A stretch of 64,000 bases of DNA from Bacteroidia bacterium (lineage in GTDB: Bacteria > Bacteroidota > Bacteroidia > Bacteroidales > GWA2-32-17). The translations under genes were made by a program, and so were the position numbers. The notes under the pieces were generated by a model. It saw only the letters and a program-made list of their open reading frames with translations. It was not told where the DNA came from and did not search any database. The stretch lies in assembly GCA_016218155.1 (NCBI GenBank), contig JACREQ010000050.1, forward strand, positions 1 to 64,000, given 5' to 3'. Positions within the stretch are counted from its first letter, which is position 1. Every line of letters starts with the position of its first letter. Of the stretch, positions 42,105 through 63,319 are shown piece by piece.

Positions 42105-42171
42105 TTTTAAAACAAGTAACTTTTATATTCATGTTACGTTTCAAATAAAGTTAAAATTGTTATATTTATTG

Positions 42172-45061: not shown

Positions 45062-48000
45062 ATGATGAAACTATACCGTTTCAAAGCGCTATATATTGCA
45101 ATTTTAATTTGCATATATAATTTAACATTCGGACAAACAACTACTGTACTAATAAATGCTTCAGGAAATTGGACATGTCCTCCGGGAGTAAATTCTGCGA
45201 CTATTGAATGTTGGGGAAGTGGTGGTGGAGGCGGTGGTGCTACTGGGAACATTGCTGGCGGCGGCGGTGGATCAGCAGGTAGTTATTCAAAAAGCATTAT
45301 TGCAGTTACACCATTAACAAATTATCCAGTAACAGTTGGAGCTGGAGGTACAGGTACAACTGCTGCCGGTGGTAATGGAAATCCTACTTGGTTTAATACC
45401 GTTGGAACAGTATACGCTGTAGGTGGATTAGGTGGCTCTCAGGCAACAGTTAATGGAACATCTACAGCAGGAGGTGCAGCTGTAGTTGCAGGAAATATTG
45501 GAACAACAATATTTTATGGAGGTGCAGGTGGAACAGGCGCAACCGGTGCTACTGCTGGCGGCGGCGGTGGAGCAGCAGGAACAAATACTACAGGAAATGA
45601 TGGAGGAGTTACAATCGGAGGAATAGGTGGTGATATAGGTGGAGGAAATGGAGGAAATGGAGGATTAACATCCGGAACAGGCGGCAATGGAAATGCAGGT
45701 ACTAGTCCAGGTGGAGGCGGCGGAGGTGGTCGCGCAGGTAGTGCTACTGATAGAAATGGCGGTACAGGTGGAGCAGGATTAATAAGGATAACTTATTTAA
45801 CTCCTCCCAACATTACCCCATTTTCAGATTTATCTTTTTGCGGAGGAGCTTATCCTACTGCATATCAAACTGTTAATTTTTCACTAAAAGAAAGATTAGC
45901 TACCGATTTTACTAGAAATCAGACAACCGGCAGAACTATTATTCTAACTTTACCAGCTGGATTTGAATTTAACCCTGCTGCTGCACATTCTGTTACTAAA
46001 AATGGTGGAGGTAGCGATATTACAACATTAACCTTAACAGGTGTAACTACTACCACAATAACTATTACAGTTAACACAAGTATTGCTAATCCAAACACAA
46101 ACTTTGATGAAATATTTTTTAATAATTTTCAAATAAGGGCAACAGCAATTGGAAGTGGAAATTTATTAAGATTATCTACAAATCCGGGTACTTTCTTAAT
46201 TAACACTACAACCCAAAACCCACTTTCTTCAGAATCCTTTGGATTTATGTATTCAAATGCTGCAACTGTTTATAACAGCAGTTCAGTTTCGCAATATACA
46301 ACAGATAATATTAATCGTAATTGTGCATCAAGCAGAAATGCTGTTATTAGCAGGTTGAGAATTAGTGTAACTGGTGGTTGTCCACCCCCTGATGTAACAC
46401 AATTTAATTTCAATACAAACGGTGATGCAGGTTTTTCTCAAAATCCTTTAACAAATATATCTTCAGCAAAAGTATATTTTAATGGTCTTTTAGAAGGCGC
46501 ACCTGTAATTACAGCAAGTACTTCTGTTTTTGGTACTATAAGTAATCCAAACGGTGCTTTCACCATAAACGGATCACAAAAATTAAACCAAGGTCCAGGT
46601 GATTATTATTTCTTTCTTGTATACGATGTTCCGGTTACTGCAAATGTTGGTGATGGACTTGATGCTTCTTTAACATCTTTTGTTATGGATGGTAGTACTA
46701 TTTCCAATATGACAACGCCAAATCCTACCGGAAAAAGAACAATTGTTGATGAGATTTGTTATACACCTGACGAACCTAATCCCCCATCTAATATAGAAAC
46801 TATTCCACTTGGCTCCTATGTAATTCCAATGGATAACAATAATCAAGCATTAGTAGCTCCTTTTAATTTAAGGTCATATGGTTTAGTTCATAGTTTATTA
46901 ATGAATGATATTCCAGTTAAGTGGGTTATACTTTCAGGAAAAGCTAAAGATGCTGTTGATTTTACAGCCAATGCATCTCGTGTCTATCCATCAGCTGTTG
47001 CTTCAGCACCAGTTTCATTTATTGCAAGTGCATTCATTATTGACAGTACATGGATAAACAAATCCTTTTATAGTACAGGAAAAACTGCTACTCAAGTAAT
47101 CACAGATTATTATGCCCTAGGTGCAGGATACAATCAGGTTACAGTTTATAGATTAACAAATAACGAAAATCTTAATGTAAGATATACACTTCATCAAAGA
47201 CCAAAAATTGCTGTTTTTAGCAATGGTGGAAATCAGGCAATTCATCAAACAATGCTTGATAATGCTGGTATAACAAATTATTTTATTCAAAATGCTGGAA
47301 ATTTCTTAGGTCTTGCAGAATGTTATACATTCTGTTCTGAAGCTCATTGGGATTTTAATACTAATCCCGATATTAATCCTGTTCAAAATGTTTTGAAATT
47401 TGTAAACGAAGGAGGTAATTTTCTCGCACAATGCGCAGGTATTGACCTCTACGAAGATCACCAGCCCGGGGGTGGACATTTCCACTCATCACATGGAATA
47501 AACTTTTCTAATGTTGCTACAACAAATACATACTCTAATACTGACATGGCATTTAATCAGTATCATGGTGTTGTAACAACAGATATGGGAAGTACAATCA
47601 GATTATTTTGGCCTGGAGTAGCTTCAGCATTTCAACCCAACATGTATCCATGTATAAGTGCACCATTACCAACAACAAATATGGTTGCAACTGCTGCTCA
47701 CGTTGGCCCTCAAGATTCAATCGGAGGTAATGTTTTCTATTTAGGAGGTCACAATTATTCAAATGACAATTTAATTCAGCATGTAAATGGTGTAAGAATG
47801 TATTTAAATGCAACACTTGTACCAGCAGCACGACCAACAGCTTTTACACTTGATGCAGGAGCTAATAGAGCAATTTGTATTGGACAAAGCACAACATTAG
47901 GTGGAAGCCCCACCGGAGGTTCTGGTGCAACTAATTATATTTGGTCGCCTACAACCGGTTTAGATGATCCTAATTCAGCCAATCCAATAGCAACTCCAAC

Positions 48001-51000
48001 TACTACAACGACCTATACAGTTATTGCAAATGATAATGGTTGCCCAGGTGGACCAGCAACTGTAACCGTAACTGTAAACGCATTACCTACTCCTACTGCT
48101 TCTAATACAGGACCATTCTGTGAAGGTGGAACTATTCAATTAAATGTTACTGCCGAAACTTCATATAACTGGTCTGGACCAGGTGGATTTACAAGCACCT
48201 TACAAAATCCAACCATTTCTGGCGCAACTCTTGCCATGGCTGGGGTATATTCAGTAACTGTTACAAATGCCGAAGGATGTACTGCAATTTCTACAACAAC
48301 AGTTACAGTAAATGCAATTCCAACTCCTATAGCAACAAACACAGGACCATATTGCGAAGGAAACACAATACAATTGAGTGTTACCTCTGCTACCTCATAT
48401 AGCTGGTCAGGTCCAAATGGATTTACAAGTACAATACAAAATCCTACAATATCAGGAGCAACTCTTGCTATGGCAGGATTATATTCTGTTACAGTAACTA
48501 ATGCTGCAGGATGCACTGCCAGTACAACAACAACAGTTACAGTAAATGCGTTACCTGTGCCTACTGCTTCAAACACAGGACCTTATTGCGAAGGAACAAC
48601 TATTCAATTAAATGTTACTGCTGCTACATCTTATAACTGGTCAGGACCTGGTGGTTTTTCCAGCATCTTACAAAACCCTACAAGAGCAGGTGCGACGCTA
48701 GCTATGGCTGGATTATATTCAGTTACAGTCACTAATGCCGCTGGATGTACTGCTGTTACAACAACCACTGTTACTGTAAACGCTGCACCAACTCCCGTTG
48801 CTTCAAATACAGGTCCATATTGTGAAGGAGCTACAATACAATTAAATGTCAATGCAGCTATATCATATAATTGGTCAGGACCAGGAGGATTTACAAGTGC
48901 CCTACAAAATCCAAATATTGCAGGATCAACACTTGCTATGAGTGGAATTTATTCTGTAACTGTAACTAATGCCGCTGGATGTACTGCAGTTTCCACAACA
49001 ACAGTTACTGTAAACGCTATTCCAACTCCAACTGCTACCAATACAGGTCCATATTGTGAAGGCAGCACAATTCAATTAAACGTTACTGCTGCTACATCAT
49101 ATAACTGGTCAGGACCTGGTGGATTCACAAGTACATTACAAAACCCAACCAGAGCGGGTGCTACTTTAGCAATGAATGGAATATATTCTGTTACAGTTAC
49201 TACTGCAGGATGTTCTGCAATAACAACTACTACAGTAACTGTAAATGCAGTTCCAGCTCCTGTTGCATCAAATACAGGACCTTATTGTGAGGGTGCAAAT
49301 ATTCAATTAAATGTTACAGCAGGAACTTCTTATAACTGGTCGGGACCTGGTGGTTTTTCGAGTGCTTTACAAAACCCAACCAGAGCAGGTGCTACACTTG
49401 CTATGGGCGGTGTATATTCTGTAACTGTTACAAATGCAGGATGTGCTCCTGTTTCTACAACAACCAATGTAATTGTAAATGCATTACCTACCCCTACAGC
49501 ATCTAATACCGGACCATATTGTGAAGGTAGTACTATTCAATTAAATGTTACAGCATCTACTTCATATAATTGGTCAGGACCGGGTGGATTTACAAGTGCT
49601 TTACAGAACCCCACAAGAGCAGGTGCAACTATGGTAATGACTGGAATTTATTCTGTTACCGTTACCAATGCTGCTGGATGTACTGCTATTACAACAACAA
49701 CAGTTACAGTTAATGCTAATCCAGTACCTACTGCTTCTAACACAGGACCTTATTGCGAAGGAAATACAATACAATTGAATGTTACTGCTGCTACTTCATA
49801 TAACTGGTCAGGACCAGGTGGATTTACAAGTGCACTACAAAATCCAACAAGAGCAGGAGCTACACTAGCTATGGCTGGCATATATTCTGTTACCGTTACA
49901 AATGCTGCAGGATGTACTGCCATTGCGACAACAACAGTTACAATAAATGCTAACCCCACCCCTACTGCATCCAACACAGGACCTTATTGCGAAGGAAATA
50001 CTATTCAATTAAACGTAACAGCAGCTACTTCTTATAACTGGTCAGGGCCAGGTGGTTTTTCAAGTGCTTTACAAAATCCAACAAGAGCTGGAGCTACACT
50101 TGCAATGGGTGGTGTATATTCGGTTACTGTAACAAATGCTTCAGGATGTACTACAGTTACTACTACTACTGTAATAGTTAATGCAATACCTACACCTACC
50201 GCATCTAACACTGGACCATATTGTGTTGGTAACACTATTCAACTAAATGTTACTGCAGCAACATCATATAACTGGTCTGGACCGGGAGGTTTTTCAAGTG
50301 CTTTACAAAATCCGACAATAGGAAGTGCAACAGTTGCTATGAGCGGTATTTATTCTGTTACCGTAACAAATGCAGCTGGCTGTACTGCAATTTCTACAAC
50401 AACAGTTACAGTAAACAACTTGCCTACTCCGACTGCTTCTAATACCGGCCCATATTGTGAGGGTTCAACTATTCAATTAAATGTTACAGCAGCCACATCA
50501 TATAACTGGTCAGGTCCAGGTGGTTTTTCAAGTGCATTACAAAATCCAACCAGAGGAAGTGCAACAGTTGCTATGAGCGGTATTTATTCTGTTACTGTTA
50601 CAAATGCAGCTGGTTGTACTGCAATAACAACAACAAATGTTATAGTAAGCGCCGTTCCGGCTCCTACAGTAACTAACACAGGTCCTTATTGTGAAGGTAA
50701 CACTATTCAATTAAACGTTACAGCTGCTACCACATATAACTGGTCAGGACCCGGAGGATTCTCAAGTGTATTACAAAATCCAACAAGAGCTGGTGCAACG
50801 CTTGCTATGGCTGGTGTTTATTCTGTAACTGTTACAAATGCTGGGTGTGCTCCTGTATCCTCTACAACAACAGTTATTGTAAATGCTTCACCAACACCTA
50901 CAGCATCAAATACAGGTCCTTATTGCGAAAGCGCTACTATTCAATTAAATGTTTCAGCAGCGTCGTCTTATAATTGGTCAGGACCAGGTGGCTTTACAAG

Positions 51001-54000
51001 TGCACTTCAAAATCCAACAATATCTGGAGCTACATTAGCTATGGCCGGTATATATTCTGTTACTGTTACTAATGCTGCTGGTTGTACAGCTATTACAACA
51101 ACAACAGTTACAGTTAACGCTAATCCAGCACCTACAGCTTCTAATACAGGACCTTATTGCGAAGGAAATACAATACAATTGAATGTTACTGCTGCTACTT
51201 CTTATAACTGGTCAGGGCCAGGTGGCTTTACAAGCACATTACAAAATCCGACAAGATCTGGTGCAACACTTGCAATGACTGGTTTATATTCTGTTACCGT
51301 AACAAATGCTGCAGGTTGTACTGCAATTTCTACAACAACAGTTACAATAAATGCCATTCCAACTCCTACTGCATCAAATACAGGACCATATTGCGTTGGA
51401 AATACTATTCAATTAAATGTTACAGCAGGCACATCATACAGTTGGTCTGGACCTGGTGGATTCACAAGTGTTGCACAAAATCCTACAAGAGCCAGTGCTA
51501 CATTAGCTATGGGAGGAGTATATTCTGTTACTGTTACTAATGCTGCGGGATGTACAGCCATTACAACAACAACAGTTACAGTTAATGCTAATCCAGTACC
51601 TACTGCTTCTAACACAGGACCTTATTGCGAAGGAAATACTATTCAGTTAAATGTTACAGCAGGCAGTTCCTATAACTGGTCAGGACCTAGTGGATTTACG
51701 AGTACTTCACAAAATCCAACAAGACCAGGATCAACATTAGCTATGGCAGGCATATATTCTGTTACTGTTACTAACGCTGCAGGTTGTACAGCTGTAAGAA
51801 CAACAACAGTAACAGTTAACACTTTACCAACACCAACTGCATCTAACACAGGGCCTTTCTGTGAAGGAACAACTATTCAATTAAATGTTACTGCTGCTAC
51901 AACTTATAACTGGTCAGGACCAGGAAGTTTCACCAGTACATTACAGAACCCTACCAGGACAGGAGCATCTATGGCTATGGCCGGATTATATTCTGTTACA
52001 GTTACCAACGCTGCAGGTTGTACTGCAGTTTCTACAACTACCGTAGTTATTGATGCAATACCTACTCCCACAGCAACCAATACAGGCCCTTATTGTGAGG
52101 GAAATACTATCCAACTAAATGTTACTGCTGGCACTTCATACAATTGGTCAGGACCTGGTGGCTACACAAGCACTTTGCAAAATCCAACAATAGCTGGGTC
52201 AACTCTTGCAATGGCCGGATTGTATTCTGTAACTGTTACTAATGCTGCAGGTTGTACTGCTTTATCAACTACAACAGTAATAGTAAATGCCTTACCTATT
52301 CCAACAGCCTCCAATACGGGACCTTATTGCGAAGGTAATACAATCCTGTTAAACGTTACAGCTGCCTCGTCTTATAATTGGTCAGGGCCAGATGGATTTT
52401 CAAGTGCATTACAAAATCCTACAATATCCGGATCTACTCTTTCCATGAACGGAGTTTATTCAGTTACTGTCACTAATGCTGCAGGATGTACAGCAATTAC
52501 TACAACTACTGTTGCGGTAAATGCATTACCTTCTCCTACAGCATCCAACACTGGACCATATTGTGAAGGAACCACAATACAATTTAATGTAACAGCAGCA
52601 AGTTCATATAACTGGTCGGGTCCCGGAGGATTTAGCAGCACATTACAAAATCCTGTAATTACGGGCGCAACACTAGCAATGGCGGGAGCTTATTCTGTAA
52701 CTGTTACCAATGCTGCAGGATGTACAGCAATTACTACTACAAATGTTACAATTAACCCTATTCCTGCAACTCCTTCTGCCAATGGAACATCAATATGTAT
52801 TAACACTTCAACTAACATTACAGCTACTGCACCAGGTGGAACATATGAATGGTATGATGCTTCTTCAGGTGGCACACTTTTATTCACAGGAGCAACATTT
52901 ACATCACCTGTATTAGTAACAAATACCACATATTATGTACAGACTACAATATCTGGATGTACCAGTATTAGAAAAGCTGTAAATATAATTGTAAGTCCCG
53001 TACCAGCATCTCCGACAGCATCAGGTACAGGTATTTGCACAGGAACAACTGCAACAATAACAGCTACTGCTCCAGGTGGAACATACCAATGGTATGACGC
53101 TTCTTCTGGTGGCACATTGTTAATTACTGGAGCTAGTTATACTACTCCGGCTCTTTTTGTCCCTACTACTTATTATGTACAAACTACTATTGGAGGATGC
53201 GCAGGACCTAGAACAGCAGTTGATGTTAATGTTAACCCACCTCCTGCAGCTCCAACAGCATCGGGAGCTACCATTTGTCAAAATAATTCAACAACTTTGA
53301 GTGCTACAGCTCCAGGCGGAGTGTACGAATGGTTTAATGCTGCATCAGGTGGCACATTGTTATACACTGGATCAGATTTTACAACACCCGTATTAATTGC
53401 AACAACTACATATTATGTTCAATCAAATGTTTTCGGTTGTATTGGACCAAGATCAGCAATTACGGTAACTGTAAATCCTATACCTGCACTACCTACTGCT
53501 CCTGGCACATCTATTTGCACTGGAAATACTGCCATATTAAATGCATCGGCTCCCGGTGGAACATATGAATGGTATGATGCTTCTTCAGGTGGCACACTAT
53601 TACAAACAGGTTCTTCCTATACAACCCCTGCCCTTATTTCTACTACAACATATTATGTGCAAACTACAATTAGCGGCTGTACAAGTGCACGTAGAGCAGT
53701 TACAGTAACAGTTAATCCCTATCCGAATGCACCTTCTGCATCAGGCACTACGATTTGCGAAGGGACTACTGCTATACTTTCTGCCACAGCGCCAGGAGGT
53801 ACCTATAGATGGTACAATGCTCCAACTGGTGGCACATTGTTATTTACGGGAGCTAATTATACAACACCCCCTCTTTCGGTTTCAACTGATTATTACGTTC
53901 AGACTACCGTACTCGGATGTGTAAGCACAAGAACCCTTGTTACAGTTACAGTTACCCCTACCCCAGTTGCACCAACTGCTTTAGGAACTACAATTTGTCA

Positions 54001-57000
54001 AGGAACAAATACAATTTTATCAGCAACAGCTCCGGGAGGTTCTTATGATTGGTATGATGCTGCTACTGGAGGCAACTTACTATCAAATGGAGTTAACTAT
54101 ACTACTCCAAACTTAAATTCAACTACAACCTATTATGTTCAGACTACTATTTCTGGCTGTGCAGGACCAAGAACTGCAGTTCAGGTAACAATAACCCCAA
54201 CTCCAGCTGCACCAACCGCTTCAGGAACTACAATATGTGAAGGATTTACTGCAACATTAACAGCAACTGCACCAGGAGGTTCATATGATTGGTATGATGC
54301 TGCTACTAGTGGAAATCTTCTTTCTTCTGGTTCAACATATACAACTGCTGCCTTAACTTCAACAACATCATTTTATGTTCAGACTACTGTTAGCGGATGT
54401 ACAGGTCCAATGTCAACAGTTACTGTTAATGTAACTCCAACCGACGACCCGTCTTTCTCATATCCATTGGGAACATATTGTATTACAGGAACTAATCCAA
54501 TACCCACTATTACCGGAGGTTTTCCGGGATCATTTACCTCATCACCTGCTGGTCTTGTTTTCGTAAGTACCACAACAGGAGAAGTAAATCTTGCTGCATC
54601 AGCATTAAACACTTATTCTGTTACTTATACAACAACAGGTCCATGTCCAGATTCATATTCTGCAAATTTGACTATAACAATTGCTCCGGATGCAAGTTTC
54701 TCATATAGCAATCCATATTGCCAGGAGGGCATTAATCCTATTCCAACATTTGGCCCAGGAACCAGTGCTGGAGTTTTCACCTCAAGTCCTTTTGGTTTGA
54801 CTTTTATTAATCCTTCTACAGGGGAAGTAGATTTACAAAATACATTACCGGGGCTATATACTATTACAAATACAATTCCAGCCGGTGGTGGTTGTGCTTT
54901 AACAATTGCTACTAACAATTTAACAATTAACACTTCACCAACTGTAGATGCAGGGCTAAATCAAACCATTTGTGAAAATTCTCAGGCAACAATTTCAGGA
55001 ACTATTGGTGGATCTGCTTCCAGTGCTACATGGACAGCATCTTCAGGTTCATTTGCTAATGCAAATAATCTTAACACGGTTTACACAGCACAAGCAGGTA
55101 TTTCGTCTGTTTGGTTACATTTAACTACAAATGACCCAGCAGGACCTTGCTCTTCAACAAATGACAGTCTTCATTTAACTATTACTTCTCTTCCAGCAGC
55201 ACCAACTGCAAATGGAAATACTATTTGCTCCGGAACAAGTACAACATTAACAGCTACATCACCCGGAGGAAGTTATGAATGGTATGATGCTGCAGTTGGT
55301 GGAACTTTGTTAGCATCCGCTGCTTCTTACAATACACCAGTATTAATGAGTACTACAACTTATTATGTTCAAACTACTGTAAATGGATGTGCCGGACCTA
55401 GAACTCCAGTTATTGTTGATGTTACACCATTACCACCTGCTCCAACAGTTGCTGACGCTTCAATTTGCGATGGGGATTACATAACATTAACTGCCACAGC
55501 TCCCGGAGGAATTTATGAATGGTTTGATGCCTTATCTGGAGGCATTTTACTTGCAACAAATGCAAACTATACAACTCCTGTTCTAAATACATCAACTTCA
55601 TACTTTGTTCAGACTACTGTATCAGGTTGCTCAGGACCAAGACAGGAAGTAGTTGTGACTGTAAATCCTATCCCAATTACTCCAACAGCTTCAGATATAA
55701 GTATTTGTTTTGGCAATACCGGAACACTGGCAGCAACAGCACCAGGCGGAACATATCAATGGTACGATGACATAATAGCTGGAACTCTATTATTTACAGG
55801 CAGTTCATATACCACTCCTGTATTATTTTCAAACATTTCTTATTATGTAGAGTCAACCATATTAGGTTGTACAGGTCCAAGAACTCAGGTAGATGTAACT
55901 GTTAATCCTATTCCAGATGCTCCTACTGCTTCCGGAACAACAATATGTTCTGGTGAAACAGCCAACATTACCGCTACAGCTCCGGGTGGAACTTATAATT
56001 GGTATTTAACTCCTACTGGAGGTATTTCACTTTTTACAGGAGCATCCTTCACTACACCAGCTCTAACAACTAATACAACATATTATGTTGAAGCAACTGT
56101 TTTAGGTTGTTCCAGTTCATCAAGAACAGCAGTAACAGTTAATGTAACACCATTACCAGATTCACCTACTGCATCAGGAATCTCCATATGTGATGGTGAA
56201 AGTACTATCCTAACAGCTACCGATCCCGGTGGTTTTTATGAGTGGTTTGATGCCCCGACAGGCGGAACTCTTTTAGCTTCCGGAAATTCATTTTCTACAC
56301 CAATTTTAAACATCACTACATCCTATTTTGTTCAAACAACATTAACGGGTTGTACAGGACCAAGAACTGAAGTAATTGTAACAGTTAATCCAATTCCTGT
56401 TTTACCTACTGTTAATAATATTTCAATATGTGATGGTAGTACAGGTACTTTAACAGCAACAGCTCCAGGCGGAACATATCAATGGTACGATGCTGCATCA
56501 GGTGGCACATTGTTATATACTGGTAATAGTTTTATAACACCACCACTAAATGCAACTACAACCTATTACGTTCAAACAACAGTTACAGGATGTACAAGTG
56601 GAAGAAAAGCAGTTACAGTTACAGTTAAACCTATACCAAACACTCCAACAGTTTCAGATGAAACAATTTGCGAAGGAGATTTTGCAATATTAACAGCTAC
56701 AGCACCAGGAGGAACTTACAGATGGTATGCTTTACCAACAGGTGGCACCCCATTATTCACAGGCGCATCATTTAATTCACCTCCTTTATTTGCTACAACC
56801 ACTTACTATGTTCAAACAACAGTTCTTGGATGTACAAGTCCTAGAACACCTGTTTTAGTTACAGTAAATCCAATTCCTTCTGCACCTACTGCACTTAGTG
56901 CAACTATTTGCGAAGGTTTTACAACAACATTAAATGCAACAGCTCCAGGTGGAAGTTATGAATGGTTTGACCTTACTATCGGGGGAAATAGTCTTGGAAC

Positions 57001-60000
57001 AGGCAGTAGCTATACCAGCTCAGTTTTAACAACAGACACATCATTCTTTGTTCAAACAACAATTCTAGGTTGTGCTAGTCCAAGAACAGAAGTTATTGTT
57101 ACTGTAACTCCAACAGATGATCCTACATTTAACTATTCTTCAGGCACATTCTGTGTTTCTGGTGTTAACCCTATTCCAACAATAACCGGAGGTTTCCCTG
57201 GATCATTTACTTCCAATCCGGCAGGATTGACGTTTGTTAATGCCAGTACTGGTGAAGTTGACCTTTCTTCCACTTTGTTAAATACATATAACATAACTTA
57301 TACAACTACTGGTCCCTGCCCTACAACACGAACAGAAATAATAACAATTACAGATGCACCTTTAGCAACATTCATATATAATACTCCATTCTGTCAATCA
57401 GGAAGTAATGAATTACCTTCATTTGGAGTTGGTGCAAGTGCAGGTGTATTTAGCGCGTTACCAGCGGGATTAAATTTTATTGATGCTATTTCAGGTGAGA
57501 TTGATATGGCAAATAGTACTCCAGGAAATTACACTATCACTAATTTCATTGCTGCATCAGGAGGATGTGCTCAGGCTACTGCAACATATGACATTGTTAT
57601 AGATCAACCTGCTACAGTTTCTGCCGGTATTAACATTCAAACATGTGAAGGATTCAATGTACCGCTTTCTGGTTCAATTGGCGGATCTGCAATAAATGCT
57701 ATCTGGACAGGTGGTACAGGAACTTTTAATGACAATACCTTATTGAATGCAATTTATACTCCTTTTGCAGGAGAAAGTTCTGTTACTTTAACATTGACTA
57801 CAGATGATCCTTCAGGACCATGCCCAAGTGTAAGCAATAGTATTAATGTAATATTTAACTCAATACCTTCTTCTCCAACAGCACTAGGTGCAACTGTTTG
57901 TGAAAACAATTCTACTATTCTCACTGCAACTGCTCCCGGAGGTTTATATGAATGGTTTGATGCAGTTACCGGAGGAAATTTACTTTCAAGTGATAGTATT
58001 TTAACCACACCAATATTAATAGTAACAACTGACTATTATGTTCAGTCAACAATAAATGGATGTACAAGTCCAAGAATACAAGTTACTGTAAATGTTAATC
58101 CTTCACCGACGGTAGATGCAGGTCTAAGTGATACTCTTTGTAGTAATAATGCCATTTCAACACTTGCAGGAATAATTGGAGGAAGTGCATCTCAGGGAAT
58201 CTGGACAACAAGTGGCTCAGGTAACTTTACACCAGATGCAACAACCTTAAATGCTACCTATTCTCCTAGTTCTGCAGATACATTAGCTGGGTTTGTAACA
58301 CTATTCTTAACAACTACAGATCAGCCTGCCGAATGTTTATCAGTAGCCGATTCAATAATTATTACATATACTGATGCTCCTAGAGTTTTTGCCGGAAACG
58401 ACAAAAATATTTGTATTGGTAACAATGCAAATATAAACGGACAGGTATTTTCAATTTCAGGAACCGGAACTTGGACATCTACCGGAGATGGTACTTTTAC
58501 AAATCCTAATAATCTTGTTACAGTATACCAGCCAGGAGCAGGTGATATCTCATCAGGAAATGTATTTCTTATACTAACCTCAACAAATAACAACACTTGT
58601 AATCCTGTTTCTGATACTTTAAAGGTAAATCTGGTTGTTCCACCAACTGTTAATGCAGGTTCAGACCAGACTGTATGTTCAAATGTTCCTGCATTATTAT
58701 CAGGGTCAGTAAGCGGAACATCAACTACAGGGTATTGGTCAACAACTGGTAGCGGAATTTTTACTCCAGATAGCACAAATCTTAGTGCTTCTTATCAACC
58801 TAGTGCTACTGACATTACTAATGGTTCAGTTACTCTCACTCTTAATTCAACTAATTCCTGTCTTGTTCAGGACCAACTTGATTTAACGTTTATATTAGCA
58901 CCGACTGTAAATGCCGGAAATAATCAGGTTGTTTGTGCTGATGTAACTCAGATTAATCTAAATGGTAACATTGCAGGATTAACAACTACCGGAATTTGGT
59001 CAACAACTGGTAGCGGAATTTTTGTTCCAGATAACACTACACTTAATGCAACTTATCAGATAAGTCAACAGGACAGCATAGATGGATCTATATCTATTAT
59101 TCTAACGTCAACAAACAATGGAATCTGTAATGCAGAATCTGATGGATTAACTCTTACAATAACAACAGTCCCAACAGTCAATGCAGGAGGCAATCAAACT
59201 TTCTGCGCAAATAACACTTTAAGCCTAAGTGGAATTATCCTAGGTGGGTTAGGAACAGGACAATGGACAACCAGTGGAACAGGAACATTTACTCCATCTG
59301 ACACCTCGTTAAATGCAACTTATAACCCTAGTATTTCAGACACTTCATCAGGGAATATAACAATAACTCTAACAACTACAGGATCATGTGTAAATGTTAG
59401 CGATGCAATTAATGTAACTATAACTCCTGGTCCATGGGTTGATGCAGGAACAGATATAGCAGTTTGTGCAAATAATTCCACTGTTGTTCTTACAGGATTA
59501 ATTTCAGGTGCAACAACAACAGGTCAGTGGACTACTAATGGTACGGGCGTTTTCATTCCAACTGATACAGATTTAAATGCCAATTACATTCCAAGCCCTT
59601 CTGATACAGCAAATGGTTCAGTTGTTATTTACCTTGAAGCTACAAATTACGGAACGTGCTTACCAGCAAATGATTCTATTGTTGTAACAATTACCTCATC
59701 ACCTACAATTAATGCAGGAAATAATTTAAGTATCTGTAATGGGAACAATGCTGTTCTTAATGGGGTTGTAAGTACATTATCCGGGCATTGGACAACAAGT
59801 GGCACAGGTACATTCACCCCTTCAGACACAATATTAAATCCTGTATACCACCCATCCGCAGCAGATACAATTGCAGGCTCTGTTATTTTAACATTATGGT
59901 CAGATAACAATGGTGGTTGCAATCAGATTAGCGATAACATCACCTTAACAATGGTTACATTCCCTATAGTAAATGCGGGGATTGATCAAACTGCGTGTTC

Positions 60001-62302
60001 AAACGTACCGGTAACATTAAACGGTAGTATTACTGGAGGTAATGGTAACGGATACTGGACAACTTCCGGAAATGGAACTTTTAGTCCGGATAGCAGTGCG
60101 TTAAATGCAAATTATAATATAAGTTCTGACGATTTAACAACTGGATTTGTAACATTAACACTTACAGCATCCGGTGGGTGTAGTACAAACGATTCTGTAA
60201 GAATAGACATTTTACCGGGTCCTATTTCTGATGCAGGCTCTAATCAGGCAGTATGCAATACACAAACTCAGGTAACCCTTAATGGAAGTATCACAGGATC
60301 TACCAATACTGGAATTTGGACTTCTACTGGAAGCGGCACATTTATTCCAAACGATTCTACTCTTAATGCAACTTATATTTTCAGTTTATCTGATAGTATA
60401 GCAGGAATCGTAAATCTAATACTTACATCAACTCACAATGGAAATTGCCCGCCAGCAATAGATACTATGGTAGTAAATATAAACTCAGCACCAACTGCTA
60501 ATGCCGGAGCTGATATTACTGCATGCGCAAATAGTACTGTAACACTTTCTGGAATAGTCTCTTCCGGCAGTTCGTTCTGGAGCACATCAGGCTCAGGAAC
60601 ATTTAGTCCTGATAGTTCTGATTTAAATGCTACATATCATTTCAGTAACGCTGATACAACATCAGGAAATGTAACATTAACTCTAAATGTTATAAATGCC
60701 TGTAGCAATACCAGCGATAGTCTTTTAATTACAATAACACCTGCTCCATATGTTGATGCAGGAAATAATCTGACTACATGTACCTCAAGCAGTGAAGTTG
60801 CACTTTCAGGTATTGTTAGTGCCGGTGCATCTACAGGAATATGGAGTACAAACGGAACAGGAGCATTCTTCCCTTCAGCAAACGATTTACTTACTAATTA
60901 TATACCAAGTGCTGATGATACTACTGCAGGATTTGTAACATTATACCTTACTTCAACTAATAATGGCAACTGTAATCCTATTAGTGACTCACTTGTTATT
61001 ACATTTATTCCGACTCCAATTGTAAATGCCGGAGAGAGCTTTACTGTATGTAATGGTAACATTGCTAATTTAAACGGAACTATTACCAGTATTTCAGGAA
61101 CAGGAATATGGACAAGCAATGGAACAGGTATATTTTCTCCTTCAGACACTCTTTTAACAACATCTTATAATGCAAGTACACAAGATATTGATTTAGGCTT
61201 TGTTGATTTAATACTAACCTCAACTAATCTTGGAAGTTGTTACATTTCTGATACTGTTCATGTATTATTCTTATCAGGAAGCGCATCTATTGAAGCCGGA
61301 CCCGACAAAACTATTTGCTGGAATGACAGTATTTTCATTACACCAACTATTTTAGGTGACACAGGCACATTCTTATGGACAACTCAAGGCAATGGAACAT
61401 TTTCACCAAACGATACTGCATGGAATGTCACATATATTCCTGATAGTACAGACTTAGATAGTGGAAGCATTTACATTTATGTCAGATATCAATTTACTTG
61501 CGGAACAAGACTTGACTCATTATTATTAACAATTAACCCATTACCTGTTGCAGGATTCACAAGTATTGCAAATTGTTCTAACACAAACATTGTATTTAAT
61601 GACACATCATTAATTACAAATGGAACAATTGATACATGGTTATGGAATTTTGGGGATGGGATGGGAAATAATACCTCTAACCCTACCCACTTATATTCTA
61701 ACTCAGGTGACTACAATGTTACCTTAATTGTACATTCGAATGCAGGTTGTTCAGACACAGCACTTGCTTCTGTACATATTTATCCGGTAATTAGCGCAGA
61801 CTTTAGCGTTTCAGACAGTATAATAAACACAGGCAATCAGGTTCAGTTTACCGACTTGTCATTAAATCCAGTTAGCTGGATATGGACATTTGGAGATGAA
61901 ACAGGAACTTCTGATTTACAAAATCCGCAGTATTTGTATAATACAATGGGAAGCTATACTGTCTGGTTATTTGTTAACGGTGAGAATGGATGTACAGACA
62001 GTACATCACAAACAATTACCGTTAACTCTAACGGATATGCTATACCAACTGCATTTTCGCCAAATGGTGATGGTCTGAATGATTACTTCTTTGTAAGAGG
62101 TGGACCTTTTATAGAGTATGAATTGCGAATATTTAATGATTGGGGACAACAAATATTTATTTCTAATAATCAATCTGCAAAATGGGATGGAACCTTTAAG
62201 GGTAAAGAACAACCTGAAGGAACCTATATATACATTTTTAATGGGAAACTTACAGATGGAACCGATTTAAATATTTCAAGTGATATTTCATTAATCAGAT
62301 AA
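45062..62302 (+). CDS. Giant T9SS-secreted multi-domain surface protein (adhesin-like)
   Basis: A 5746-residue cell-surface protein. Order by residue: signal peptide 1-24; glycine-rich segment ~50-245; beta-sandwich region ~250-560; linker ~560-713; class I glutamine-amidotransferase-like domain ~714-915 with C791 in AQCAGID and H897 in LGGHNY; one Ig/PKD-like unit ~922-1005; 20 'A' modules of ~78 residues (1006-2564); seven 'B' modules of 80 residues (2565-3124); spacer D1 (3125-3375); eight B (3376-4015); D2 (4016-4265); one B (4266-4345); 13 'C' modules of ~88 residues (4346-5491); two PKD domains (5492-5660); T9SS type B C-terminal domain (5661-5746), beginning IPTAFSPNGDGLND. Each A and B module carries one cysteine pair. 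It is probably an adhesin or gliding-type filament, with its own PorP/SprF partner 12 bases downstream. ATG 45065 is an equal start. Confidence 0.9.
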   Translation: MMKLYRFKALYIAILICIYNLTFGQTTTVLINASGNWTCPPGVNSATIECWGSGGGGGGATGNIAGGGGGSAGSYSKSIIAVTPLTNYPVTVGAGGTGTTAAGGNGNPTWFNTVGTVYAVGGLGGSQATVNGTSTAGGAAVVAGNIGTTIFYGGAGGTGATGATAGGGGGAAGTNTTGNDGGVTIGGIGGDIGGGNGGNGGLTSGTGGNGNAGTSPGGGGGGGRAGSATDRNGGTGGAGLIRITYLTPPNITPFSDLSFCGGAYPTAYQTVNFSLKERLATDFTRNQTTGRTIILTLPAGFEFNPAAAHSVTKNGGGSDITTLTLTGVTTTTITITVNTSIANPNTNFDEIFFNNFQIRATAIGSGNLLRLSTNPGTFLINTTTQNPLSSESFGFMYSNAATVYNSSSVSQYTTDNINRNCASSRNAVISRLRISVTGGCPPPDVTQFNFNTNGDAGFSQNPLTNISSAKVYFNGLLEGAPVITASTSVFGTISNPNGAFTINGSQKLNQGPGDYYFFLVYDVPVTANVGDGLDASLTSFVMDGSTISNMTTPNPTGKRTIVDEICYTPDEPNPPSNIETIPLGSYVIPMDNNNQALVAPFNLRSYGLVHSLLMNDIPVKWVILSGKAKDAVDFTANASRVYPSAVASAPVSFIASAFIIDSTWINKSFYSTGKTATQVITDYYALGAGYNQVTVYRLTNNENLNVRYTLHQRPKIAVFSNGGNQAIHQTMLDNAGITNYFIQNAGNFLGLAECYTFCSEAHWDFNTNPDINPVQNVLKFVNEGGNFLAQCAGIDLYEDHQPGGGHFHSSHGINFSNVATTNTYSNTDMAFNQYHGVVTTDMGSTIRLFWPGVASAFQPNMYPCISAPLPTTNMVATAAHVGPQDSIGGNVFYLGGHNYSNDNLIQHVNGVRMYLNATLVPAARPTAFTLDAGANRAICIGQSTTLGGSPTGGSGATNYIWSPTTGLDDPNSANPIATPTTTTTYTVIANDNGCPGGPATVTVTVNALPTPTASNTGPFCEGGTIQLNVTAETSYNWSGPGGFTSTLQNPTISGATLAMAGVYSVTVTNAEGCTAISTTTVTVNAIPTPIATNTGPYCEGNTIQLSVTSATSYSWSGPNGFTSTIQNPTISGATLAMAGLYSVTVTNAAGCTASTTTTVTVNALPVPTASNTGPYCEGTTIQLNVTAATSYNWSGPGGFSSILQNPTRAGATLAMAGLYSVTVTNAAGCTAVTTTTVTVNAAPTPVASNTGPYCEGATIQLNVNAAISYNWSGPGGFTSALQNPNIAGSTLAMSGIYSVTVTNAAGCTAVSTTTVTVNAIPTPTATNTGPYCEGSTIQLNVTAATSYNWSGPGGFTSTLQNPTRAGATLAMNGIYSVTVTTAGCSAITTTTVTVNAVPAPVASNTGPYCEGANIQLNVTAGTSYNWSGPGGFSSALQNPTRAGATLAMGGVYSVTVTNAGCAPVSTTTNVIVNALPTPTASNTGPYCEGSTIQLNVTASTSYNWSGPGGFTSALQNPTRAGATMVMTGIYSVTVTNAAGCTAITTTTVTVNANPVPTASNTGPYCEGNTIQLNVTAATSYNWSGPGGFTSALQNPTRAGATLAMAGIYSVTVTNAAGCTAIATTTVTINANPTPTASNTGPYCEGNTIQLNVTAATSYNWSGPGGFSSALQNPTRAGATLAMGGVYSVTVTNASGCTTVTTTTVIVNAIPTPTASNTGPYCVGNTIQLNVTAATSYNWSGPGGFSSALQNPTIGSATVAMSGIYSVTVTNAAGCTAISTTTVTVNNLPTPTASNTGPYCEGSTIQLNVTAATSYNWSGPGGFSSALQNPTRGSATVAMSGIYSVTVTNAAGCTAITTTNVIVSAVPAPTVTNTGPYCEGNTIQLNVTAATTYNWSGPGGFSSVLQNPTRAGATLAMAGVYSVTVTNAGCAPVSSTTTVIVNASPTPTASNTGPYCESATIQLNVSAASSYNWSGPGGFTSALQNPTISGATLAMAGIYSVTVTNAAGCTAITTTTVTVNANPAPTASNTGPYCEGNTIQLNVTAATSYNWSGPGGFTSTLQNPTRSGATLAMTGLYSVTVTNAAGCTAISTTTVTINAIPTPTASNTGPYCVGNTIQLNVTAGTSYSWSGPGGFTSVAQNPTRASATLAMGGVYSVTVTNAAGCTAITTTTVTVNANPVPTASNTGPYCEGNTIQLNVTAGSSYNWSGPSGFTSTSQNPTRPGSTLAMAGIYSVTVTNAAGCTAVRTTTVTVNTLPTPTASNTGPFCEGTTIQLNVTAATTYNWSGPGSFTSTLQNPTRTGASMAMAGLYSVTVTNAAGCTAVSTTTVVIDAIPTPTATNTGPYCEGNTIQLNVTAGTSYNWSGPGGYTSTLQNPTIAGSTLAMAGLYSVTVTNAAGCTALSTTTVIVNALPIPTASNTGPYCEGNTILLNVTAASSYNWSGPDGFSSALQNPTISGSTLSMNGVYSVTVTNAAGCTAITTTTVAVNALPSPTASNTGPYCEGTTIQFNVTAASSYNWSGPGGFSSTLQNPVITGATLAMAGAYSVTVTNAAGCTAITTTNVTINPIPATPSANGTSICINTSTNITATAPGGTYEWYDASSGGTLLFTGATFTSPVLVTNTTYYVQTTISGCTSIRKAVNIIVSPVPASPTASGTGICTGTTATITATAPGGTYQWYDASSGGTLLITGASYTTPALFVPTTYYVQTTIGGCAGPRTAVDVNVNPPPAAPTASGATICQNNSTTLSATAPGGVYEWFNAASGGTLLYTGSDFTTPVLIATTTYYVQSNVFGCIGPRSAITVTVNPIPALPTAPGTSICTGNTAILNASAPGGTYEWYDASSGGTLLQTGSSYTTPALISTTTYYVQTTISGCTSARRAVTVTVNPYPNAPSASGTTICEGTTAILSATAPGGTYRWYNAPTGGTLLFTGANYTTPPLSVSTDYYVQTTVLGCVSTRTLVTVTVTPTPVAPTALGTTICQGTNTILSATAPGGSYDWYDAATGGNLLSNGVNYTTPNLNSTTTYYVQTTISGCAGPRTAVQVTITPTPAAPTASGTTICEGFTATLTATAPGGSYDWYDAATSGNLLSSGSTYTTAALTSTTSFYVQTTVSGCTGPMSTVTVNVTPTDDPSFSYPLGTYCITGTNPIPTITGGFPGSFTSSPAGLVFVSTTTGEVNLAASALNTYSVTYTTTGPCPDSYSANLTITIAPDASFSYSNPYCQEGINPIPTFGPGTSAGVFTSSPFGLTFINPSTGEVDLQNTLPGLYTITNTIPAGGGCALTIATNNLTINTSPTVDAGLNQTICENSQATISGTIGGSASSATWTASSGSFANANNLNTVYTAQAGISSVWLHLTTNDPAGPCSSTNDSLHLTITSLPAAPTANGNTICSGTSTTLTATSPGGSYEWYDAAVGGTLLASAASYNTPVLMSTTTYYVQTTVNGCAGPRTPVIVDVTPLPPAPTVADASICDGDYITLTATAPGGIYEWFDALSGGILLATNANYTTPVLNTSTSYFVQTTVSGCSGPRQEVVVTVNPIPITPTASDISICFGNTGTLAATAPGGTYQWYDDIIAGTLLFTGSSYTTPVLFSNISYYVESTILGCTGPRTQVDVTVNPIPDAPTASGTTICSGETANITATAPGGTYNWYLTPTGGISLFTGASFTTPALTTNTTYYVEATVLGCSSSSRTAVTVNVTPLPDSPTASGISICDGESTILTATDPGGFYEWFDAPTGGTLLASGNSFSTPILNITTSYFVQTTLTGCTGPRTEVIVTVNPIPVLPTVNNISICDGSTGTLTATAPGGTYQWYDAASGGTLLYTGNSFITPPLNATTTYYVQTTVTGCTSGRKAVTVTVKPIPNTPTVSDETICEGDFAILTATAPGGTYRWYALPTGGTPLFTGASFNSPPLFATTTYYVQTTVLGCTSPRTPVLVTVNPIPSAPTALSATICEGFTTTLNATAPGGSYEWFDLTIGGNSLGTGSSYTSSVLTTDTSFFVQTTILGCASPRTEVIVTVTPTDDPTFNYSSGTFCVSGVNPIPTITGGFPGSFTSNPAGLTFVNASTGEVDLSSTLLNTYNITYTTTGPCPTTRTEIITITDAPLATFIYNTPFCQSGSNELPSFGVGASAGVFSALPAGLNFIDAISGEIDMANSTPGNYTITNFIAASGGCAQATATYDIVIDQPATVSAGINIQTCEGFNVPLSGSIGGSAINAIWTGGTGTFNDNTLLNAIYTPFAGESSVTLTLTTDDPSGPCPSVSNSINVIFNSIPSSPTALGATVCENNSTILTATAPGGLYEWFDAVTGGNLLSSDSILTTPILIVTTDYYVQSTINGCTSPRIQVTVNVNPSPTVDAGLSDTLCSNNAISTLAGIIGGSASQGIWTTSGSGNFTPDATTLNATYSPSSADTLAGFVTLFLTTTDQPAECLSVADSIIITYTDAPRVFAGNDKNICIGNNANINGQVFSISGTGTWTSTGDGTFTNPNNLVTVYQPGAGDISSGNVFLILTSTNNNTCNPVSDTLKVNLVVPPTVNAGSDQTVCSNVPALLSGSVSGTSTTGYWSTTGSGIFTPDSTNLSASYQPSATDITNGSVTLTLNSTNSCLVQDQLDLTFILAPTVNAGNNQVVCADVTQINLNGNIAGLTTTGIWSTTGSGIFVPDNTTLNATYQISQQDSIDGSISIILTSTNNGICNAESDGLTLTITTVPTVNAGGNQTFCANNTLSLSGIILGGLGTGQWTTSGTGTFTPSDTSLNATYNPSISDTSSGNITITLTTTGSCVNVSDAINVTITPGPWVDAGTDIAVCANNSTVVLTGLISGATTTGQWTTNGTGVFIPTDTDLNANYIPSPSDTANGSVVIYLEATNYGTCLPANDSIVVTITSSPTINAGNNLSICNGNNAVLNGVVSTLSGHWTTSGTGTFTPSDTILNPVYHPSAADTIAGSVILTLWSDNNGGCNQISDNITLTMVTFPIVNAGIDQTACSNVPVTLNGSITGGNGNGYWTTSGNGTFSPDSSALNANYNISSDDLTTGFVTLTLTASGGCSTNDSVRIDILPGPISDAGSNQAVCNTQTQVTLNGSITGSTNTGIWTSTGSGTFIPNDSTLNATYIFSLSDSIAGIVNLILTSTHNGNCPPAIDTMVVNINSAPTANAGADITACANSTVTLSGIVSSGSSFWSTSGSGTFSPDSSDLNATYHFSNADTTSGNVTLTLNVINACSNTSDSLLITITPAPYVDAGNNLTTCTSSSEVALSGIVSAGASTGIWSTNGTGAFFPSANDLLTNYIPSADDTTAGFVTLYLTSTNNGNCNPISDSLVITFIPTPIVNAGESFTVCNGNIANLNGTITSISGTGIWTSNGTGIFSPSDTLLTTSYNASTQDIDLGFVDLILTSTNLGSCYISDTVHVLFLSGSASIEAGPDKTICWNDSIFITPTILGDTGTFLWTTQGNGTFSPNDTAWNVTYIPDSTDLDSGSIYIYVRYQFTCGTRLDSLLLTINPLPVAGFTSIANCSNTNIVFNDTSLITNGTIDTWLWNFGDGMGNNTSNPTHLYSNSGDYNVTLIVHSNAGCSDTALASVHIYPVISADFSVSDSIINTGNQVQFTDLSLNPVSWIWTFGDETGTSDLQNPQYLYNTMGSYTVWLFVNGENGCTDSTSQTITVNSNGYAIPTAFSPNGDGLNDYFFVRGGPFIEYELRIFNDWGQQIFISNNQSAKWDGTFKGKEQPEGTYIYIFNGKLTDGTDLNISSDISLIR
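48077..52753 (+). repeat. 20 tandem copies of the ~234-bp 'A' module
   Basis: Codes for residues 1006-2564 of the giant protein. Each ~78-residue unit contains TASNTGPYCEG, TSYNWSGPGGF, LQNPT and YSVTVTNAAGCTA. Copies 5, 6 and 12 are shorter by one residue or more near the second cysteine. Copies 10 and 15 share a Glu-to-Val change after the first cysteine. Higher-order similarity (copies 6-8 like 12-14) and an 80-base identical stretch between 49688-49767 and 51560-51639 show recent exchange between units. Confidence 0.95.
52754..54433 (+). repeat. Seven tandem 240-bp 'B' modules, first block
   Basis: Exactly 560 residues in seven 80-residue Ig-like units with the pattern ATAPGGTYEWYDA-SGGTLL ... 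TTYYVQTTISGC. It resembles the Ig-like (Ig_7 type) domains of T9SS surface proteins. Confidence 0.93.
54434..55186 (+). repeat. Spacer unit D1 (first copy of a ~250-residue duplication)
   Basis: Begins TPTDDPSFSYPLGTYC, includes a Gly/Pro/Phe motif (ITGGFPGSFTS) and a second F-S-Y unit, and ends with one isolated 'C' module. A second copy lies at 57107-57856. Confidence 0.9.
55187..57106 (+). repeat. Eight tandem 240-bp 'B' modules, second block
   Basis: Exactly 640 residues as eight 80-residue units of the B family. One unit (the fourth) carries an extra serine near its second cysteine, balanced by a shorter first unit. Confidence 0.93.
57107..57856 (+). repeat. Spacer unit D2 (second copy of the ~250-residue duplication)
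   Basis: Begins TPTDDPTFNYSSGTFC, with ITGGFPGSFTS conserved, and ends with an isolated 'C' module, in the same order as D1. A final single B module follows at 57857-58096. Confidence 0.9.
58097..61534 (+). repeat. 13 tandem ~264-bp 'C' modules
   Basis: Codes for residues 4346-5491. Units of ~88 residues follow the pattern P-VNAG-[ND]Q-VC, then W-T-[ST]-GTGTF-P, LNATY-PS-D, and a closing C-N--SD strand. They are more diverged from each other than the A modules, so this block is older or under less exchange. Confidence 0.92.
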
Positions 62303-62314
62303 AAAAAAGAAATT

Positions 62315-63319
62315 ATGAAAACAAATAAAATAATATTCGGTATATGTTTTATATTAAGCATATTTCTTTTCACTAAAGCTTATTCACAAGACCATCATTT
62401 TTCGCAATTTGATGCAACTTTACAGGCATTAAATCCAGCCCTCTGCGGAATGTCGTGGGGCGATGAATTTGCATGGAGGGCAAATACTAGTTACAGATCT
62501 CAATGGCGAGGAATTGCTACCAAGCCATTTAATAACCAGCTTTTAAGTTTTGACATGCCATACAAAGGATTTGGAATAGGTGGTTATTTGTTGAATACAA
62601 GATCTGGTGCAGGTTTTTTAAACACTTTAAATTTTATGGTTGGTGGTGCTTATGAAATAACTTTAGATCCGAAAAATGAACATAATCTTTTCGGGGGATT
62701 GCAAATCGGGTTATTTAACAGAAGTATTAAAGTTGATAACTTAATCTTTGACAGTCAATATTCATATGCCACAAATTCTTACGATGAAAATATAATAAGT
62801 GGTGAAATATTAGAAAATAAAAGTATTTATCGATTTGATGCCAATATGGGATTTTATTATAAATACCGGAAAAACGGACTTAAAGTAAGTCCACATGTAG
62901 GTTTATCATTATTTCATGTAACAATGCCAAACGAATCCTTTACTTCAGAAAAAAGTAGAATGCCTATCAGATACGTTTTAACCGGAGGATGTGAATACCA
63001 TATTAACGAACAAATGTACATTCAGCCAAATATTTTAACGATGTTTCAGGCAAAGGCAACTGATTTAGTATTTTCAACTCTTTTCTATTACAAAATAAAT
63101 GACACTCCATATCAAACAATTGCAGGATTAGCATATAGAAATAAAGATGCAGTAATGATACATTTAGGATTAAAATATAATCAATGTGTATTCAGATTAA
63201 GCTATGACATAAACACTTCTTATCTAAAGAAATATACTAATGGTAGAGGTGGGCTTGAAATCTCAATTATTTATGTTCAAAAAGCTAAGAAAACTGTGAA
63301 TAGAACAATTATCCATTAA
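62315..63319 (+). CDS. PorP/SprF-family T9SS outer-membrane protein
   Basis: A 334-residue outer-membrane beta-barrel protein of the PorP/SprF family, which partners with T9SS to export specific cargo. It has a signal peptide (1-~22) and begins the mature part with QDHHFSQFDATLQALNPALCGM, the family's start. RANTSYRSQWRGIATKPFNNQLLSFDMPYKGFGIGGYLLN and the C-terminal barrel strands (LGLKYNQCVFRLSYDINTS) follow. It starts 12 bases after the adhesin stop with no terminator between. This pairing of a type B-CTD adhesin with an SprF-like gene is known from SprB/SprF in gliding Flavobacterium, and suggests that this protein is needed to secrete or anchor the giant protein. Confidence 0.94.
   Translation: MKTNKIIFGICFILSIFLFTKAYSQDHHFSQFDATLQALNPALCGMSWGDEFAWRANTSYRSQWRGIATKPFNNQLLSFDMPYKGFGIGGYLLNTRSGAGFLNTLNFMVGGAYEITLDPKNEHNLFGGLQIGLFNRSIKVDNLIFDSQYSYATNSYDENIISGEILENKSIYRFDANMGFYYKYRKNGLKVSPHVGLSLFHVTMPNESFTSEKSRMPIRYVLTGGCEYHINEQMYIQPNILTMFQAKATDLVFSTLFYYKINDTPYQTIAGLAYRNKDAVMIHLGLKYNQCVFRLSYDINTSYLKKYTNGRGGLEISIIYVQKAKKTVNRTIIH

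Follow-up and report, generated by a model that had tools for sequence, protein, structure and literature searches.

A conserved cysteine- and histidine-bearing head with an amidotransferase-like fold on a giant stalked surface protein of a Bacteroidia bacterium: a candidate exported enzyme

A giant protein encoded in a 64,000-nucleotide stretch of a Bacteroidia bacterium genome (contig JACREQ010000050.1, positions 1 to 64,000; analysed whole and hereafter called the window) carries near its N-terminus a two-part head, in which a small domain precedes one predicted to adopt the class I glutamine amidotransferase-like (GATase-like) fold, and behind it a long Ig-like/PKD-like stalk that leads to a type IX secretion system (T9SS) sorting domain. 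We are inclined to regard the head as an exported enzyme of Cys-His type, borne on an Ig stalk that the T9SS displays, a reading that we consider just about probable. It is supported by a confident structural model with a GATase-like fold, a strand-Cys-helix elbow and a histidine past the last core strand, by the retention of C791, H897 and R912 (77/77 aligned rows) and of H762 (76/76 readable rows) across three clades and a lone row, and by the low dN of the head, its export part being supported by a type B tail and an adjoining PorP/SprF gene. It is weakened by the absence of a glutamate two residues after H897, by a negative profile comparison with GATase and ThuA domains, and by the existence of apparently non-catalytic proteins that share the fold. 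The head belongs to a recurring family, nameless in the databases searched, probably of enzymes or ligand-binding heads on long stalks.

The gene, its motif strings and the two residues singled out in the original prediction (C791 and H897) were all recovered as described, and the two residues recur in relatives. The layout of the gene and its downstream neighbour is as follows.

45062..62302 (+): T9SS type B surface protein, whole gene, 5746 aa (open reading frame list; TIGR04131 and CHU_C tail)
45062..45136 (+): putative signal peptide, residues 1-25 (from the hydrophobic N-terminus)
45167..45796 (+): glycine-rich domain (Gly_rich_2), residues 36-245 (Pfam PF21722, E 3.4e-14)
45797..46774 (+): pre-head region, residues 246-571 (no Pfam hit in the scanned part)
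46775..47197 (+): N-terminal small alpha/beta domain of the head, residues 572-712 (predicted by model and conservation)
47198..47839 (+): class I glutamine-amidotransferase-like domain, residues 713-926 (predicted by model and fold matches)
47840..61543 (+): Ig-like/PKD-like stalk (Ig_7 PF19081, E 4.3e-185 and 1.4e-203; motif count)
61544..61765 (+): PKD domain, the better of two stretches (PF18911)
62042..62245 (+): CHU_C / T9SS type B sorting domain (PF13585 E 3.6e-17; TIGR04131 E 5.6e-13)
62315..63319 (+): PorP/SprF outer-membrane protein (PF11751 E 1.1e-32)

The tail scores 48.8 bits against TIGR04131 (cut-off 35), and the gene at 62315-63319 provides the linked PorP/SprF-like protein looked for beside T9SS type B cargo, so the earlier description as a T9SS surface protein is supported. 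This PorP/SprF protein is probably the dedicated partner of the giant protein. Type B cargo binds PorP-like proteins according to the available extract of PMC9143113, and two type B substrates need cognate PorP/SprF shuttles in that of PMC12618676. We envisage that the giant protein is exported by the T9SS via its type B tail, recognised here by profile, that the neighbouring PorP/SprF-like protein would hold it at the cell surface, as related systems suggest, and that the long Ig/PKD stalk would carry the two-part head. In the stalk, a module of ~78 aa repeats from residue 1015 on (20 copies counted by motif), and 19 Ig_7 stretches (9 + 10) are individually above threshold; the "about fifty" Ig-like modules proposed earlier fit its length, though only these 19 stretches and 20 motif copies were counted. 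No Pfam family matched residues 246-926 above its cut-off, and none of NCBIfam matched residues 1-1000 at E<=1. By eye, the text of residues 246-571 resembles the pre-head stretch of one long relative (L005) and of some others. Two adjoining proteins encoded upstream of the giant gene (39768-44379) combine TPR repeats with a SpoIIE-type phosphatase domain. A paralogue sought in the same genome yielded a single further match, a standalone frame of 428 aa.

Residue 714 corresponds to position 47201, and the segment runs from PKIAVFSNGG through GGNFLAQCAGIDLYED (with C791) to FYLGGHNY (with H897). An amidotransferase-like part does lie at residues ~714-915, where a domain had been placed, but the conserved unit is longer, residues ~572-926 (46775-47839), and starts with a second, small domain. 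The unit is more than chance, since profiles of relatives pick it up across many genomes. In a tree of 77 rows, built by a quick method (SH-aLRT 98-100; the position of long rows is unsure), group A (30 rows, including the window), group B (16) and group C (30) are separate, and a lone sequence, L049, stands on a long branch. For the pairs A-B, A-C and B-C the median identities are 24%, 19% and 18%, and the profile-profile probabilities 99.9%, 96.9% and 86.3%. In groups A and B the unit forms part of a longer protein that appears to be secreted; group C members are standalone frames, mostly of ~420-490 aa, with an N-terminus that looks signal-peptide-like by eye. The A-to-C profile alignment spans the first part of the unit and ends just past C791; for H897, equivalence in group C is therefore judged from the multiple alignment and a GGH motif. 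The conserved residues of the GATase-like part are listed below.

47345..47347 (+): H762, after the third strand of the GATase-like part; 76/76 readable rows
47432..47434 (+): C791, at the nucleophile-elbow position; 77/77 rows; strand-C-helix in DSSP
47453..47455 (+): E798, acidic (E or D) in 75/77 rows (47/48 and 28/29)
47750..47752 (+): H897, after the last core strand; 77/77 rows
47795..47797 (+): R912, in the last helix; 77/77 rows
47807..47809 (+): N916, in the last helix; 76/77 rows

C791 and H897, whose conservation was among the tests proposed for the original prediction, are identical in all 48 aligned members and in all 29 members outside the modelled alignment, several of the latter being near-copies of aligned rows; since the rows were picked by similarity, members without the conserved residues may be under-represented in these counts. 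The same 29 also keep R912 and N916 (29/29 each) and H762 (28/28 readable). Two residues after C791 an A, G or S stands in 77/77 rows. Behind H897, E is found at H+2 in 0/77 rows and at H+3 in 30. The N-terminal head domain has its own constant positions, with Y606, G607 and W621 in 76/76 rows and F658 in 75/76. Compared with the nearest relative (L002), the head has a dN of 0.092 and its flanks 0.185-0.362, which makes it by dN the most constrained portion of the N-terminal region; dS is 1.05-1.92, near saturation, and for this reason no dN/dS ratio is quoted.

An AlphaFold2 model of residues 572-935, built from the 48-row alignment, reached a mean pLDDT of 90.7 and a pTM of 0.91. Its residues 142-352 (713-923 of the window protein) match class I amidotransferase-like folds at Z 12-13; the rows at Z>=12 align 164-203 residues, with Foldseek E values from 2.0e-05. 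Structure prediction and fold search thus support the flavodoxin-like amidotransferase fold that had been proposed from the letters. Representative matches are:

Pdx2 (2iss): Z 13.1, rmsd 2.6, 168 residues aligned
GMP-synthetase glutaminase (7yc6): Z 12.3, rmsd 2.8, 174 aligned
ThuA-like (1t0b): Z 12.3, rmsd 3.1, 190 aligned
GH42 enzyme (5xb7): Z 13.3, rmsd 2.6, 174 aligned
levan SGBP (8aa2_G): Z 12.1, rmsd 3.0, 195 aligned
IFT52 (5fmr): Z 11.3, rmsd 3.0, 182 aligned

An oligosaccharyltransferase (OST) subunit is also among the fold matches of this part. In the extra domain of GH42 enzymes, in IFT52 and in the OST subunit the fold is not known to be catalytic. According to DSSP, C791 (C220 in the model) sits between a strand and a helix, i.e., in a strand-Cys-helix elbow, H762 lies two residues past the third strand of the GATase-like part, and H897 (H326 in the model) three residues past the last core strand. 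Active-site residues of the class I amidotransferase-like fold lie at the positions of C791, H762 and H897, and the modelled placement of C791 and H897 is, by topology, consistent with the two coming together. The N-terminal half of the head, predicted alone, is equally well defined (pLDDT 92.4, pTM 0.89), and gave no Foldseek match at E<=0.001 (best VIA Z 4.1); we do not claim a new fold for it. PDB sequence searches with the domain, the 48-row profile and the standalone relative returned nothing meaningful, and a viral structure library gave four matches, to proteins of phages or giant viruses, at E<=0.001.

The term "glutamine amidotransferase-like" used in the original prediction therefore suits the fold and not the family. 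Class I amidotransferases have a catalytic Cys-His-Glu triad with the Glu at H+2. The head does have a cysteine, the predicted nucleophile, at the elbow after a core strand in every row, and lacks the glutamate throughout; among 48 members not one gave a PF00117 match at E<=1 (eight families matched any member at all), and on these two counts the head was not assigned to the class I glutamine amidotransferases as a family. With the H-x-E glutamate absent and no synthetase domain found fused to the head by Pfam in the scanned parts of the protein, it is probably not a true glutamine amidotransferase, although a synthetase might be a separate subunit. Neither did the ThuA model (PF06283) match any of the 48 members at E<=1. 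BPL_N (PF09825) matched 4/48 weakly (best E 0.0055) and is the sole Pfam trace in the window head (E 0.14 over 20 residues around the GG..C elbow), where it stays below its cut-off (11.5 bits vs 24.2); the HisH model NF010608 matched 1/48 weakly (E 0.025). In Pfam and NCBIfam no family reached significance for the members scanned, including the standalone relative, and PHROGs gave no significant family for the window and phage-contig copies of the head. Profile-profile comparison with 23 class I GATase and 4 ThuA domains of related genomes, part of 35 loci fetched, yielded a probability below 2%, a weak negative because the control comparison of GATase with ThuA failed too (4.7%). Taken together, these tests place the head outside the GATase and ThuA families, with their fold and part of their active-site plan. 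The label "asparagine synthetase B" considered for the standalone relative is unsupported here; the Tannerella AsnB described in the available extract of PMC6120980 (605 aa) belongs to another family.

Under the enzyme reading, C791 would attack an amide or ester with H897 as its base, H762, E/D798, R912 and N916 would shape the pocket and orient the substrate, and the small first domain of the head may cover or select it. The substrate is likely to lie outside the cell, as an amide or ester of a polymer or peptide, and the activity at the tip would be that of a Cys-His hydrolase or acyl-transferase; the head is not expected to supply ammonia to a synthetase. The strongest rival holds that the head is a non-catalytic ligand-binding domain, e.g., for glycans, at the tip of an adhesin, as is the ThuA-like domain of the levan-binding SGBPlev, whose structure (8aa2_G) superimposes on the model over 195 residues at Z 12.1 and rmsd 3.0; the stalk, too, appears to resemble those of adhesins. 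We nevertheless regard a binding head as rather unlikely, since so strict a set (one Cys, two His, an Arg and an Asn), kept in three clades, would seem to exceed what a surface for changing ligands needs, and since the standalone relative retains the same residues. A less probable alternative is that C791, H762 and H897 form a metal or cofactor site at the edge of the sheet, in a metal-binding or redox domain. Both histidines and the cysteine do come shortly after strands of the sheet, where further His and acidic residues occur in the standalone group (HxHHED), but a cysteine at the elbow and a histidine past the last strand are typical of class I amidotransferase-like enzymes, and we think such a site improbable. 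That C791 is structural, in a disulfide with C754 or another cysteine at an oxidising surface, we consider very unlikely: C754 is common in the secreted groups (45/77 rows over all groups), but the standalone group keeps C791 without C754, and the two would lie at opposite ends of the parallel sheet, given that C754 precedes the third strand and C791 follows the fourth.

A scan of GTDB contigs gave one 85% relative (L002), one in a Chitinophagia MAG (L003), the frame list of which shows two copies, and a distant one (L004); step-wise profiles were then used to extend the head family. In a sample of the phylum, a single-sequence query and a four-row profile each found only the window itself (1/395). 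A mixed profile (A2) had at least one match in at least 350 of 395 sampled genomes of the class, and, among the matches listed, most were frames of group C size. The profile of groups A and B (E<=1e-30) gave 35 matches in at least 29 of the 395 class genomes, 26 of them in frames of at least 1000 aa, the longest being the window's own (5751). Both genome counts are likely to be underestimates, since scoring took in no more than five first-look candidates from each genome. The original remark that no such architecture is known cannot stand against this recurrence, and SGBPlev is similar as described in the available extract of PMC7618045. In the order of the window, matches occur in 93/168 genomes, and six have them in frames of at least 900 aa (G000, G420, G421, G433, G462, G479). 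As for the same genus, four genomes were searched: one (G920) has a head frame of 1333 aa, two gave matches of other kinds, and the fourth, which is 74% complete, gave no match. A search of the open-licence literature with a few terms found no account of the head family.

In the long relatives the head either follows the N-terminus closely or has other N-terminal domains in front of it; in the close relatives L057 and L062 it comes ~1,100 residues in. Among the 22 C-termini of frames ending within the fetched DNA (four further frames leaving it were set aside), T9SS tails at E<=0.01 were of type B in 10 and of type A in 9. By eye, type B tails belong to the group A giants and type A tails to group B and the short group A proteins, and L002, L049 and L068 align with neither tail type. 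Of 10 group A loci inspected, 9 have a PorP/SprF gene downstream at a distance of up to ~2.6 kb; at L064 none was recognised within 5.5 kb. In the closest relative (L002:8339-17170) a 1319-aa frame and a separate second frame, which leaves the fetched DNA, replace the giant gene. Downstream of one group B gene (L060) lies a 503-aa frame that by eye has the N-terminal domain and a T9SS-like tail, without the Cys-bearing half. The group B protein of one genome (G771; L052:14999-16021) is unusually Cys-rich where its relatives differ and has an odd letter make-up. The standalone relative adjoins a dnaB-like gene (by eye) in three loci (L069:6603-7868, L004, L012), including that of the window's own genome.

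Two copies came from IMG/VR contigs. One (L018:1018-2643, IMG/VR 3300032223_002226) is a group A protein of 542 aa that ends in a type A-like tail. It lies on a phage-like contig, where PHROGs matches include dUTPase, dCMP deaminase and thymidylate synthase, and is possibly a phage-carried copy. The other, the lone tree row (L049:4923-10535, IMG/VR 3300002821_000302), has a divergent head on an 1871-aa protein with other repeats; its frame, which has no T9SS tail match, ends at the very end of the contig, and two recombinase-like frames and an amidase-like frame (by eye) lie upstream. It perhaps belongs to a mobile element outside Bacteroidota. Tblastn searches of phages with these two and the standalone relative returned nothing, nor did those of plasmids, for which L049, the standalone relative, a group B domain and the domain of the window protein served as queries, and viral contigs scanned with group B held no relative.

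Tentatively, and with less conviction than for the window protein itself, we propose an unnamed family of Cys-His enzymes that combine the GATase-like fold with an N-terminal domain of no recognised fold. A standalone branch of ~420 aa would be an exported housekeeping protein widespread in the class, and two further branches would have become the catalytic heads of repeat proteins, often giant ones, that the T9SS displays, i.e., adhesin-like fibres tipped with an enzyme, with copies also on phage-like and recombinase-bearing contigs. Long T9SS adhesins are usually regarded as sticky fibres. The recurring head with its conserved Cys-His-His-Arg set would mean that some T9SS adhesins are surface enzymes, or else that they bear a new class of ligand-binding tip. 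The same fold acts in Bacteroides as a receptor for levan, so that the head allows one to test directly how a scaffold switches between catalysis and binding, and the standalone relative is a good handle on the chemistry of the head family.

None of the three elements (fold, display by T9SS, Ig stalk) is new, and a related head-on-stalk design exists in SGBPlev. With class I glutamine amidotransferases (Pdx2/YaaE, the glutaminase of GMP synthetase and component II of anthranilate synthase) the head has the fold in common (Z 11.8-13.1), as well as the elbow cysteine, a small residue at Cys+2 and a histidine past the last core strand; it differs from them in having no H+2 Glu, PF00117 match or fused synthetase, in its extra N-terminal domain and in its presumed export. 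ThuA-like proteins (PF06283; 1t0b, 4pxy) also have the fold (Z 12.1-12.3), and by eye three of four ThuA stretches compared have a GH motif at the end of the last strand region, the fourth stopping short, while all four have His and not Cys at the elbow. The likeness to BPL_N (PF09825) is a weak one of sequence near the GG..C elbow (11.5 bits over 20 residues). SprB-like T9SS type B adhesins resemble the window protein in being giant repeat proteins with a type B tail and an adjoining PorP/SprF gene, and differ by the GATase-like head, none being described for them in the extracts of open-licence literature available. A parallel in design is SGBPlev (Bt1761) at the Bacteroides surface, where, in the available extract of PMC7618045, a ThuA-like domain behind two Ig-like domains binds levan via tryptophans. 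Both proteins carry a GATase/ThuA-like domain on Ig-like domains (Z 12.1), for the window protein presumably also at the Bacteroidota cell surface, but SGBPlev is a lipoprotein of a SusCD utilisome with two Ig-like domains and its head at the C-terminus (same extract), whereas the window protein is of T9SS type and bears its head near the N-terminus.
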